From positions 1 through 64,000 of the forward strand of contig JARKQJ010000190.1 of assembly GCA_029973955.1 (NCBI GenBank): a DNA stretch of 64,000 nucleotides. The letters are read 5' to 3'. Shown piece after piece: positions 16,767 through 33,580 of this stretch (the stretch's first letter is position 1; each line of letters starts with the position of its first letter). The position numbers and the translations under genes were made by a program. The stretch comes from Paludibaculum sp. (GTDB lineage Bacteria; Acidobacteriota; Terriglobia; Bryobacterales; Bryobacteraceae). The notes under the pieces are model-generated. The model was given only the letters and a program-made list of their open reading frames with translations, did not search any database and was not told where the DNA came from.

Positions 16767-17282
16767 ATGCGTACCCTGCTGAGCCGCTCCCTATCCGCCT
16801 CGCTCCTCTTGGCACTCCTCCTCGGCGCCGGCTTGGCTTTCTCACAGACGCAGCGCAAATACTCCGGCCCGCGCCCACCCAAGCCTGACGTCCCCTTCCT
16901 CCTGCACGCCGGCAAACTGATCGAGGCCGAATCCCTCACCGCCACCGAATCTCAGGCCAAGGACGGCACCCAGTACACCATCCCGGGCGCCGCCTCCTCC
17001 GCCCGCACGCCCGTGCCCGAGCCGATCTTCCTCTTTCAGTCCGACAAGATCAACCCGGACAAGCTCACGCTCTTCAAAATGGAATCCCGCGGCGGCAGCC
17101 GCACCCTCCTGCTCCCCGCCGCCGGCAAGCGCAGCAAAAACGGACCGCGGCCCCTCTTCATGCTCGTCTCTCCCCTCGCGCCGGGCCTGTTCAAAGTGGA
17201 GGTCAACGAGATCCTCGCCGACGGCGAATACTGCATGTCCCCGGAAGGCTCCAATCAGGTCTTCTGCTTCGCCGCTTACTAG
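16767..17282 (+). CDS. secreted hypothetical protein
   Basis: 171 residues with a clear Sec signal peptide (RTLLSRSLSASLLLALLLGA, cleavage after GLAFS-Q about 27). The mature protein is polar and contains no recognised motif; FKVEVNEILADGEYCMSPEGS near the end is the most patterned part, with two Cys (about 156 and 168) that could pair. The frame upstream to 16572 is open but lacks a signal peptide, so ATG 16767 is preferred. It lies 35 bases after the kinase-like gene and just before the glycosyltransferase, on the same strand. Function unknown. Confidence 0.75.
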   Translation: MRTLLSRSLSASLLLALLLGAGLAFSQTQRKYSGPRPPKPDVPFLLHAGKLIEAESLTATESQAKDGTQYTIPGAASSARTPVPEPIFLFQSDKINPDKLTLFKMESRGGSRTLLLPAAGKRSKNGPRPLFMLVSPLAPGLFKVEVNEILADGEYCMSPEGSNQVFCFAAY

Positions 17283-17297
17283 CCCGCTCCGGACCCG

Positions 17298-17303
17298 TAC
17301 AAT
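17298..17303 (+). promoter_or_regulatory. -10-like hexamer TACAAT before the GT-C gene
   Basis: TACAAT ends 6 bases before the TTG start at 17310, the same spacing as at 440-452. A leaderless transcript starting at a UUG codon would be unusual, so the start or the promoter assignment may be imperfect. Confidence 0.33.
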
Positions 17304-17309
17304 AGTCGA

Positions 17310-19472
17310 TTGCCCTCTCTGCTCGCCATCGCCGGCGGAGCCGCGCTGGTCCTCGCGGCCTCGGCTGCTCTCGGACGCCTCGCCTGGCGCTTCCGCGCTC
17401 CCCATTCCGTTTACTACCTCTCCTCCGGCGTTCCCCTTCTCTCCCTCTGCTTCTTTGCTCTCCTCAACACCGGCAAGGCCACGCCGCCCATCGCGCTCGC
17501 TCTCTGCTCCGCAACGGCTGCCCTGATCTTCCTCCGCCGGCCTGGCCTGGCCCGGCCAACTCTTCCGCATTGGAGCGCACTCGCTTTTCTGCCCTTCTTC
17601 GTTTTCTATCTGGTGCATGCTTTCGCGCCAGAGATCCAGCCCGATGCCGTCACCTACCACCTCGGCCTGGTCTCGGATTGGATTCGCAACGCGGCCATCT
17701 CTCACCGCATCGGCTTCTACGACCTTCTGCCTTTGGGTCTCGAATCCGTCTTCTTCCCCGCCGTCCTCGCCGGCGGATTCAGCGCCGCCAAACTGGTCCA
17801 CTTCGCCCTGCTCTGCGCCACGGTCCCCCTCATCGTCCGCCTGGGACATCTCCTCGGCCTCGACCGCCCCCAATCGCTCGCCGCCGCCGGCCTCTACGTC
17901 TTCTCCCCCGTGGTGGGCATCTCCGGCTCCGCCGCCTACAACGACGCCGCCCTCGTCTTCTTCAGCCTCGCCGCCTTCGCGCTCCTCCTGGAGGACGCCG
18001 CCGCGCCCCGCCAGGCCCTCCTGTTCCACGCCGGCCTCGCCGCCGGCTTCTGTTACGCCATCAAGATCACCGGGGCCGTCGCCGTCGCCGGCCTCCTCGG
18101 CTGGCTGCTCTGGAAGCGCCGCTGGCGCGGCTCGCTCTGGGCCGCCCTGGCCGCCGCCCTCTCCATCGCGCCCTGGATGCTCCGCGGCTTCCTGCTCACC
18201 GGCAATCCGCTCGCCCCGCTGGCCAACCGCATCTTCCCCAACGACTTCTTCCATGCCTTCAACGAAGAGGTGCTCGCCCGCTACCTCAGCGACTACGGCG
18301 GCCTCGCCTGGCATCGCATCCCCTGGTCTCTCGCCATCGACGGCGCCACGCTCCAGGGCCTCTACGGCCCGCTGCTTCTCCTGCTTCCCCTCGCGCTCTT
18401 CGCTCTGCGCAAGCCCGCCGGCCGCGCGCTCTTCGCTGCCGCCCTCATCCTCGCCCTGCCCTGGACCCGCAACATCGGCGCGCGCTTCTTCATGGCCTCT
18501 TTCGCCCTCCTCGCCATCGCGCTCGTCCTGGCCCTCCCGCGCCGCCTCGCCCCGGCGCTGCTCCTGCTCCAAGCCATTCTCTGCTGGCCCAATACCCTCG
18601 ACCTCTACTCCAACCCCAACTCCTGGCGCCTCCGCGGCTTCCCTTGGGAGGCCGCCCTCCGCATCGAGCCCGAACAGCACTACCTCGCGCGCAGCCTCCC
18701 CGATTACCCCTTCACCCGCAACGTCGCCCTCCACTTGCGCGACAACGAACCCCTGCTGGACCTCACCGCCCTCCCCTTCGCCTACCTCAACACCGTCCCC
18801 ACCGGCCCGCTCTCTTCCGCTCAATTCGACAACATCGTCCAGACTCTCAACTCCGCCTACGGCGAAGCGCCCGAACGCCTCTATCCCGTCCACTGCCGCT
18901 TCCCCCTCACCTTCGCGCGCGCCGCCCGCGTCCGCCTCAACGAACCACTCCCCGGCTCCTGGTCCATTACCGAGGTCTCGGTGGAACGAAACGGCGCCCG
19001 CCTCCCCGTCTCCCGGAACTGGCTCCTCAGCGCCTCCCCCTCACCCGGCGATGCCTGGCTCGCCATCGACGGCAACCGCGCCACCCGCTGGCACTCCCTC
19101 CACAACGGGCAGCCCGGCATGTTCTGGGAACTCCGCTTTGACCGCCCCATCCCCATCGACGGCCTCTCCCTCATCCTCCCCAACTTCCCGCGCACCAACC
19201 TCGCCACCATCGAAATCCAGAACATCGCACGGCAGTGGATCCCCGTGTCCCAAGGAGCCGAAATGAAAGCCGAGATCGGAGTCCCCTGGCGCATGTTCTA
19301 CCGCCACGCCGCCATTCGCTTCCTCAAGCACCAGGGCTTCCGCTGGATCGCCGCCCGCCTGGGCACCGACGGCCACGGACCTACCGCCGAATCTCTCGTC
19401 TCCCTCCGCGAGGCCTGGGGCGTCGACGTCGCCGTCCGCAACGATGACCTCGTTCTGCTCCGGCTCCGCTGA
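17310..19472 (+). CDS. GT-C type membrane glycosyltransferase with C-terminal F5/8-type-C-like domain
   Basis: 720 residues. The first about 430 contain roughly ten to twelve hydrophobic helices. An early periplasmic-loop motif QPDAVTYHLGLVSDW carries the acidic residue and D-x-x-x-Y-H pattern of polyprenyl-phosphate-dependent GT-C transferases. The C-terminal part (about 570-690) resembles a discoidin or F5/8-type-C carbohydrate-binding domain: DAWLAIDGNRATRWHSLHNG then GMFWELRFDRPIPIDGLSL. A sugar transfer at the outer face of the inner membrane is inferred. The TTG start is uncertain. The last 57 codons are repeated in tandem 264 bases downstream, but the gene itself is complete in the first copy. 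Confidence 0.82.
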   Translation: MPSLLAIAGGAALVLAASAALGRLAWRFRAPHSVYYLSSGVPLLSLCFFALLNTGKATPPIALALCSATAALIFLRRPGLARPTLPHWSALAFLPFFVFYLVHAFAPEIQPDAVTYHLGLVSDWIRNAAISHRIGFYDLLPLGLESVFFPAVLAGGFSAAKLVHFALLCATVPLIVRLGHLLGLDRPQSLAAAGLYVFSPVVGISGSAAYNDAALVFFSLAAFALLLEDAAAPRQALLFHAGLAAGFCYAIKITGAVAVAGLLGWLLWKRRWRGSLWAALAAALSIAPWMLRGFLLTGNPLAPLANRIFPNDFFHAFNEEVLARYLSDYGGLAWHRIPWSLAIDGATLQGLYGPLLLLLPLALFALRKPAGRALFAAALILALPWTRNIGARFFMASFALLAIALVLALPRRLAPALLLLQAILCWPNTLDLYSNPNSWRLRGFPWEAALRIEPEQHYLARSLPDYPFTRNVALHLRDNEPLLDLTALPFAYLNTVPTGPLSSAQFDNIVQTLNSAYGEAPERLYPVHCRFPLTFARAARVRLNEPLPGSWSITEVSVERNGARLPVSRNWLLSASPSPGDAWLAIDGNRATRWHSLHNGQPGMFWELRFDRPIPIDGLSLILPNFPRTNLATIEIQNIARQWIPVSQGAEMKAEIGVPWRMFYRHAAIRFLKHQGFRWIAARLGTDGHGPTAESLVSLREAWGVDVAVRNDDLVLLRLR

Positions 19473-19815
19473 GCCCTGCACCGCCCCCGCATCCGCCACC
19501 GGCCTGGGCCGCCGCGCCCGCCGCCCCCGCCCGCCGGTGCCTCCCTGCGTCCAGGCAAGGTCTACCGCCACGCGGCCATTCGCTTCCTCCAGCACCAGGG
19601 CTTCCGCTGGATCGCCGCCCGCCTGCGCACCGGCGGCCACGGACCTACCGCCGAATCACTCGTCTCCCTCCGCGAGGCCTGGGGCGTCGACGTCGCCGTC
19701 CGCAACGATGACCTCGTTCTGCTCCATCTCCGCTGAACCCTGCACCGCCCCACCCCCCGCATCCCGACCCGGCTTGGGCCGCCGTGGCCGCTTCCCCTCG
19801 CCCGCCGCCGGCACC
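19297..19815. repeat. two-copy tandem duplication of a ~264-bp unit at convergent gene ends
   Basis: The block from TCTACCGCCACG at 19297 recurs at 19561. The first 176 bases of each copy align without gaps, with 7 differences, and cover the last 57 codons plus stop of the glycosyltransferase. The following about 80 bases also match, with small indels. Both copies keep the transferase frame open to its TGA (19472 and 19736). On the other strand rluB reads into copy 2 and stops there. No transposase, terminal inverted repeat or target-site duplication is visible. Confidence 0.9.
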
Positions 19816-20597
19816 GGCTTGGCCCCGCTCTTTCTTAGGGCCCGCACTTCCTCATGCGTCAGCAGCCGCCAATGCCCCATCTGCAAACGCTCGATCCGGA
19901 CGCTGCCGATCGAAACCCGCACCAGCTTCAGCACCTGGCTCTCCAGCGCCTCCACCATCCGCCGCACCTGCCGGTTGCGCCCTTCGGTAATGGTGATCTC
20001 AAAGAACGACTTGCTCTCCGAATCGCGAACCCGCTTCACTTTGGCCGGCCGGGTCATGCCGTCTTTCAGCTCCAGCCCGTCGCGCAGCCTGCCCAGTTGC
20101 TCATCGCTCAGCAGCGTGGATGCTTTCACCAGGTAGGTCTTCGGCACGTGGAACTCGGGGTTCGTGATGTGCTCGGCAAAGGCCGTGTCGTTGGTCAGAA
20201 TCAGCAGCCCGGAGGTGTCCTGGTCCAGACGCCCCACCGGAAACACCCACTGGTCGAGCTTCTGCAGCAGGTCATACACGGTCGGTCGCCCATCCGGATC
20301 CTTGTAGGTGGTGAGATACCCCTTCGGCTTGTACAGCAGCACGTAGATCTTCTTCTCGGCCTGCAGGGGACGCCCATCGAGCACCACGGCGTCTCTGTCG
20401 AGGTCCACCCAATGCTCTGGATCGCGGATCGTCTTGGCGTTCACTTTCACCCGCCCGCGCACAATCCACTCCCGGGCCTCGGTGCGCGAGCAGACGCCCG
20501 CCTTCGATAGAACGCGGTCCAGCGTCTTCAGCACGCGCTGTTCCGGTTGCTTCCGCGCGGGGGCTTTCCGTCGTCTGTCTTTGCTGCGGTGTTCCAA
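19656..20597 (-). CDS. 16S/23S rRNA pseudouridine synthase (RsuA/RluB family)
   Basis: 313 residues. An N-terminal S4 RNA-binding domain (TLDRVLSKAGVCSRTEAREW) is followed by the pseudouridine synthase core with the catalytic Asp in FPVGRLDQDTSGLLILTND, then HITNPEFHVPKTYLVK and GRNRQVRRMVEALE. RluB (23S U2605) or RsuA/RluE homologues are the likely orthologues; the exact target is not determinable. The last about 50 residues (GEGKRPRRPKPG onward) are low complexity and antisense to a duplicated piece of the neighbouring glycosyltransferase gene. The stop codon exists only in copy 2 of that duplication. The start is TTG, 7 bases after TAGAAT. Confidence 0.9.
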   Translation of the reverse strand: MEHRSKDRRRKAPARKQPEQRVLKTLDRVLSKAGVCSRTEAREWIVRGRVKVNAKTIRDPEHWVDLDRDAVVLDGRPLQAEKKIYVLLYKPKGYLTTYKDPDGRPTVYDLLQKLDQWVFPVGRLDQDTSGLLILTNDTAFAEHITNPEFHVPKTYLVKASTLLSDEQLGRLRDGLELKDGMTRPAKVKRVRDSESKSFFEITITEGRNRQVRRMVEALESQVLKLVRVSIGSVRIERLQMGHWRLLTHEEVRALRKSGAKPVPAAGEGKRPRRPKPGRDAGGGAVQGSAEMEQNEVIVADGDVDAPGLAEGDE

Positions 20598-33146: not shown

Positions 33147-33275
33147 GGGGGAGTGCTGGAGAGGACTTCGGTGCGCCGCTGGGGACGGCCTTTCGACCCT
33201 GCCGGGAGGGCGTGCTGGCGAATGGCGCCGGGGAGTGGTGCCCGGGGGGGATTCGGGCCTGCCGTGCTTGGACGC

Positions 33276-33580
33276 GTGGCCCCGAGACTTTGTCTCGGGG
33301 GAGTACGGCTCCACGGGGAGACGGGCTTGGTCGTGTGGCCCCGAGACTTTGTCTCGGGGGAATACGGCTCCACGGGGAGACGGGCTTGGTCGTGTGGCCC
33401 CGAGACTTTGTCTCGGGGGAACACGGCTCCACGGGGAGACGGGCTTGGACGCGTGGCCCCGAGACTTTGTCTCGGGGGAATACGGCTCCACGGGGAGACG
33501 GCTTGGTCGTGTGGCCCCGAGACTTTGTCTCGGGGGAATACGGCTCCACGGTGGCCCAGAGACTTCGTCTCGGGGGAAAC
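33276..33580. repeat. 59-bp tandem repeat array with six palindromic hairpins
   Basis: Units start at 33276, 33335, 33394, 33453, 33511 and 33551, with steps of 59, 59, 59, 58 and 40 bases. Each contains CCCCGAGAC-TTT-GTCTCGGGG, a perfect 9-bp stem with a 3-base loop; the last copy is CCCAGAGAC-TTC-GTCTCGGGG. Between hairpins is a near-constant spacer (ACGGCTCCACGGGGAGACGG). The array sits between the 3' ends of a TPR gene and metG, so it may stop transcription in both directions. No unique spacers, so it is not a CRISPR. Confidence 0.9.

Follow-up and report, generated by a model that had tools for sequence, protein, structure and literature searches.

Overlapping genes can form by the loss of a stop codon, which is route a in one of the general accounts of such genes (PMC2268670; further general accounts in PMC2478687 and PMC3887535), and in gene fusions born from deletions a structural change brings remote gene pieces together and creates a new coding end (PMC12803068). 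Among the titles listed for overlapping genes and deletion-born fusions, none concerned the locus described here. The locus lies in a window of 64,000 nucleotides, the whole analyzed stretch of contig JARKQJ010000190.1 of a Paludibaculum genome, wherein the convergent genes of a membrane glycosyltransferase (GT) and of a RluB-like pseudouridine synthase meet at a tandem repeat (Table 1). Based on the gene order in related genomes, we propose that a reciprocal rearrangement with two breakpoints, most simply an inversion, very probably left this locus as one of its two scars, and that a unit spanning the join was probably duplicated in tandem thereafter.

The GT and rluB-like genes and the tandem repeat at their junction

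The GT product matches the GT-C/PMT-like models PMT (PF02366; 27.5 bits, cut-off 22.7) and PMT_2 (26.3 bits, cut-off 26.1), and its ortholog is 82% identical in the relative G008 and 69% in G005. The protein encoded on the opposite strand belongs to the RsuA/RluB/RluE/RluF family, with an S4 domain (PF01479, 39.5 bits) and a PseudoU_synth_2 domain (PF00849, 77.9 bits) above their cut-offs and a match to the NCBIfam model TIGR00093 at 175 bits (cut-off 109). The model of the RluB equivalog acting on 23S rRNA U2605 (NCBIfam PRK10700) gave 130 bits, below its curated cut-off of 290, so rluB is used here as a label only. The RluB structure 4lab matches residues 24-256, and the alignment with the solved relatives stops at about residue 259; therefore, the RluB tail lies outside the matched fold.

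The earlier note had described a 264-base unit that occurs twice, the copies differing at 7 of the first 176 bases, which two repeat searches and a comparison position by position bear out. Tandem Repeats Finder reported 19297-19818 with a period of 264, 2.0 copies and 88% matches, the second search found 242 nt at 87% with a spacing of 264, and the 7 differences (about 4%; 0-based indices 13, 29, 65, 72, 97, 165 and 166) all fall in GT-coding bases. The last part of the unit is more diverged and contains indels; a gapped alignment pairs 19474-19536 with 19738-19807, to which none of 1000 mononucleotide shuffles came as close, and leaves the final 24 bases of copy 1 unaligned to copy 2. A 29-base probe occurs exactly twice in the window (0 expected), and a DNA search of the whole 6.5 Mb assembly did not find the unit elsewhere, so that a dispersed element was rejected on account of this single location. 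No terminator was found within 19250-19900. A further tandem repeat of the window, at 33266-33551, comprises 4.9 copies of a 59-base unit at 95% match.

Since the spacing of 264 is divisible by three, copy 2 follows the GT stop (TGA, 19470-19472) in the same frame as GT, and the rluB frame runs exactly opposite the GT codons. The GT stretch of copy 2 looks like a relic, presumably devoid of function, and its translation differs from that of copy 1 by K>Q, G>R, D>G and R>H, plus F>V at the edge codon. Among the 720 GT codons, TCA occurs once and neither CTA nor TTA occurs, and therefore the antisense register opposite GT stays open; the locus thus illustrates how codon bias can clear the way for long antisense tails, this register being almost free of stops. 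A minus-strand ORF of 683 codons at 16842-18893, antisense to GT and to the gene upstream of it, was considered as a functional gene and set aside, as it has no Pfam match at E 0.001 and codon bias may explain it.

Table 1. Features of the GT/rluB junction and of the reciprocal junction (window positions unless another contig is named)
Feature	Position	Strand	Remarks
GT-C type (PMT-like) membrane glycosyltransferase (GT) gene	17310-19472	+	Pfam PMT; ends inside copy 1
Repeat copy 1	19297-19560		3′ end of GT and spacer; keeps the G008 base at 5/5 differences polarized by G008
Repeat copy 2	19561-19824		apparent GT-end relic, inferred join and rluB tail
GT C-terminus, apparent relic	19560-19736	+	GT frame, downstream of the GT stop, within copy 2
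rluB-like pseudouridine synthase gene	19656-20597	-	313 codons, TTG start as listed; Pfam and NCBIfam
rluB stop codon TGA (TCA on the plus strand)	19656-19658	-	opposite a serine codon; TCT in copy 1
RluB residues 288-313 (26 residues)	19659-19736	-	antisense to the apparent GT relic
RluB residues 283-287 (GAVQG)	19737-19751	-	resembles the last codons of lon (APVQG-stop in G008)
Interval with the inferred rearrangement join	19748-19808		limits of GT-side and rluB-side similarity
PadR regulator and ADOP permease pair, 3.0 kb	9284-12296 of L095 (contig C186)		between lon and ligase; TIGR03433, TIGR03434

Ancestral gene order and the reciprocal junction

Eight relatives from the genus (G001-G008) were compared; all of them have rluB, and seven (G001, G002, G004-G008) have a GT ortholog, G003 being left out for GT since its best match, 34% identical, was taken as a paralog. 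At the fetched GT loci, GT and rluB occupy separate places in 7/7 of the GT-bearing relatives. To the left of the join, contig C12 of G008 carries, in the same order, 8 matches of window ORFs between 9487 and 19472, some of which are overlapping shadow ORFs; to the right, 10 matches between 19656 and 29628 keep their order on its contig C99.

G008 and G005 both possess the two old junctions, namely GT converging on lon, with an overlap of 4 bp in either genome, and rluB converging on a ligase-like gene. The gene facing GT in G008 is lon (TIGR00763), followed by a gene that we take to be clpB, while the one facing rluB encodes a membrane protein without an NCBIfam match, which we read as O-antigen-ligase-like (hereafter ligase), followed by a presumed phosphatase gene, a CCA-adding enzyme whose best NCBIfam model stays below its cut-off, and a presumed transporter. 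Because both old junctions are common to G008 and the more distant G005, judged by the GT identities given above, the order in the window genome is derived.

These two are the only ones of the seven GT-bearing relatives where GT abuts lon. Among the other six genus relatives, none has GT abutting lon and three have rluB facing the ligase, which makes 5/8 for the latter junction. GT and lon are convergent and 11-38 kb apart in G001, G002, G004 and G007, and divergent at about 291 kb in G006; a ligase downstream of rluB was not found within 8.3-8.7 kb in G002, G006 and G007. In G007, one contig carries all three genes, GT (+) at 1.74 Mb, lon (-) at 1.78 Mb and rluB (+) at 4.11 Mb, in the orientation that an inversion would need, a support that extends to those three genes only. 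Symmetry of the proposed inversion about the origin was set aside as a line of evidence after dnaA-like genes had been located in G007 and G006, since gene order has diverged.

The window's own genome (G000) is a draft of 282 contigs, 94.5% complete and 6.05% contaminated, and its contig C186 carries lon and the ligase facing each other, 3.2 kb apart. The order there, clpB and lon on one side converging on ligase, phosphatase, CCA-adding enzyme and transporter on the other, is that of G008 on both sides, with identities of 92% (clpB), 94% (lon), 84% (ligase), 89% (phosphatase), 78% (CCA-adding enzyme) and 94% (transporter). Both new junctions are thus present in one genome, with synteny on all four sides.

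The draft state of the assembly, its 6% contamination and the strain-like difference of about 4% between the copies over their first 176 bases would fit an assembly artefact, either a chimera or the head-to-tail scaffolding of two strain variants, which would make a single copy look like two. However, the reciprocal junction, located on another contig with the order of G008 on both sides, speaks strongly against a chance chimera, as a random one would not produce it. This junction alone would still allow a false second copy, but copy 2 carries four protein-changing differences at sites where G008 agrees with copy 1, and the unaligned last 24 bases of copy 1 likewise argue against it, so that we regard an artefact as very improbable.

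The PadR-ADOP pair within the reciprocal junction indicates that the rearrangement may have been more complex. By E-value, the best matches of its permease reach identities of 33% (G008), 34% (G005) and 46% (G004), and a close ortholog was not found in these three genomes. As a signature of inverted duplication at the breakpoints, the 3′ part of copy 2 was compared with the sequence beyond the ligase end on C186, and 5 of 1000 shuffles were as good; being one of nine comparisons and in a GC-rich stretch, this similarity was not used.

Order of the join, the duplication and the stop codon

Under the proposed rearrangement, the ancestor would have had the two convergent pairs GT-lon and rluB-ligase, and breakage where the 3′ ends of each pair met could have produced the convergent pairs GT-rluB in the window and lon-ligase on C186. 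Upon losing its old stop, the rluB frame would have run antisense into the open register of the GT end. A 264-base segment across the new join would then have been tandemly duplicated, whereby copy 1 would have remained the GT end and copy 2 the rluB end, with the two genes no longer overlapping and copy 2 drifting as GT sequence; a TCA at one serine codon ends RluB at 313 residues.

Similarity to G008 on the GT side extends to 19483 in copy 1 and 19747 in copy 2, and similarity on the rluB side starts at 19777 (G005) or 19809 (G008). As the copies align to 19536 and 19807, respectively, past 19777, the unit seems to hold about 30 bases from the rluB side, which suggests that the join probably preceded the duplication. 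Compared with rluB ends, the 3′ part of copy 1 alone gave no significant match (107 of 1000 shuffles as good for G008 and 153 for G005), and that of copy 2 a weak one (15 and 34 of 1000, respectively); therefore, this order rests on the copy-to-copy alignment past 19777. The stretch coding for GAVQG, also present in copy 1 at 19473-19487, is a possible breakpoint remnant of lon, the former neighbor, of which about 10 bases would be left.

With G008 as the outgroup, 5/5 of the polarizable differences are changes in copy 2; four of these, K>Q, G>R, D>G and R>H, alter the encoded protein. G008 does not polarize the remaining 2/7, which include the stop-codon site. G005 agrees with G008 at 4/5 of the polarized sites. 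The base of copy 2 is absent from all 10 GT relatives only at R>H, and at the other four sites some more distant relative has it. At third codon positions the copies differ at 3/58, and copy 1 differs from G008 at 21/58, which indicates, small numbers and gene conversion aside, that the duplication is much younger than the split from G008; gene conversion could make it look young. This is the outcome of the alignment with related genomes by which the earlier note had suggested dating the duplication.

The claims that the rluB stop lies on a T/A difference and that the frame in copy 1 stays open for another 600 bases are confirmed, as copy 1 has TCT there and, in place of the present stop, the next in-frame stop would come at 19041, 205 codons on. 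At this codon, TCA occurs in 0/10 GT relatives, 8/10 having TCG or TCC and 2/10 a codon other than serine, and on this comparison the rluB stop codon is lineage-specific and new. We attempted to polarize the T/A difference by the relatives, and this failed, as they have G or C there. With TCG in G008 and TCC in G005, the T of copy 1 and the A of copy 2 are both derived, so that the order of stop and duplication cannot be read from these bases; as the copies are equally old, a silent change may have occurred in either of them with about equal probability.

These results bear on the account in the earlier note, wherein rluB owed its C-terminus to a tandem duplication of the GT end and its stop to a T that later became A in copy 2. 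What this account drew on is real, namely the repeat, the T/A difference and the open register antisense to GT, and the lineage-specific stop fits it as well. However, GT is not beside rluB in the relatives, so something else must have joined the pair, a single unit would yield the same tail, and either T>A in copy 2 or A>T in copy 1 may have occurred. We therefore consider this account very unlikely and attribute the neighborhood of GT and rluB to the rearrangement, after which one unit would suffice for the tail; that the stop is new holds, and it may have been set after the duplication.

The notion of overprinting has to be narrowed in the same way: the rluB tail is indeed read on the strand opposite a copy of the GT end, but the GT gene ends 183 bases before rluB, which overlaps copy 2 only, behind the GT stop, and the antisense part comprises 26 residues, not about 30 as had been estimated. 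Under the proposed rearrangement, the GT end and the rluB tail would at first have shared at least 81 antisense bases, a minimum that would be larger if the present stop codon was then absent, and the duplication might have resolved this overlap by giving each gene a private copy, a suggestion that we put forward tentatively and with somewhat less than even confidence.

The RluB tail in relatives and comparison with known systems

The window's RluB extends 57 residues beyond K256. Among 40 surveyed loci, 39 with a stop and, since five are contigs repeated under a second identifier, 34 of them distinct, the tail after K256 measures -1 to 36 residues in 38 and 73 in G013, which is the comparison of rluB length that the earlier note had recommended. 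The tail of the window was absent from all the relatives examined, that is, the 8 aligned from the genus and the 39 loci; neither this tail nor, as given above, the stop is thus shared with relatives. We take the tail to be neutral.

The sequence downstream of rluB was surveyed at 36 loci for ligase neighbors only; 10 have a convergent ligase, 25 do not within the 564 to 8732 bp covered, and in one rluB runs off the contig end. As three of these 10 (L098-L100) duplicate the contigs of G003, G001 and G004, there are seven distinct ligase-facing relatives, and in 7/7 of them rluB and the ligase overlap antisense, by 4-198 bp (G008 57, G005 57, G003 4, G001 15, G013 198, L102 30, G004 21). Therefore, the habit of an antisense tail at the end of rluB is older, and the window genome changed the partner. 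In G013 (L041), a 73-residue RluB tail with 198 bp antisense to the ligase is a longer case of the same habit. One record, L117 (CALQCC020000012.1), is titled as a Bordetella parapertussis MAG, and its rluB is 66% identical to that of the window, like Bryobacterales records; its label may be wrong.

The locus, for which both scars and the ancestral state are available, exemplifies in nature how a conserved enzyme can exchange its C-terminal tail through a rearrangement, and it suggests that a small duplication can then undo an overlap created by the rearrangement. If the duplication did resolve the overlap, this could be a general route for undoing overlaps made by rearrangements.

Compared with the known systems, the locus resembles the overlaps formed by stop loss (PMC2268670) in that the old stop of rluB would have been lost and its frame extended antisense to a new in-frame stop; however, here a rearrangement would have both removed the stop and changed the neighbor, and a tandem duplication would later have separated the genes. 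With the deletion-born fusions described in PMC12803068 it shares a structural change that joins distant pieces into a new coding end, whereas here the exchange would be reciprocal and the added piece lies antisense to a gene end. A further likeness is the overlap of rluB and the ligase in G013, wherein the RluB tail likewise runs antisense across the end of a convergent neighbor, although the neighbor in the relatives differs from that in the window.
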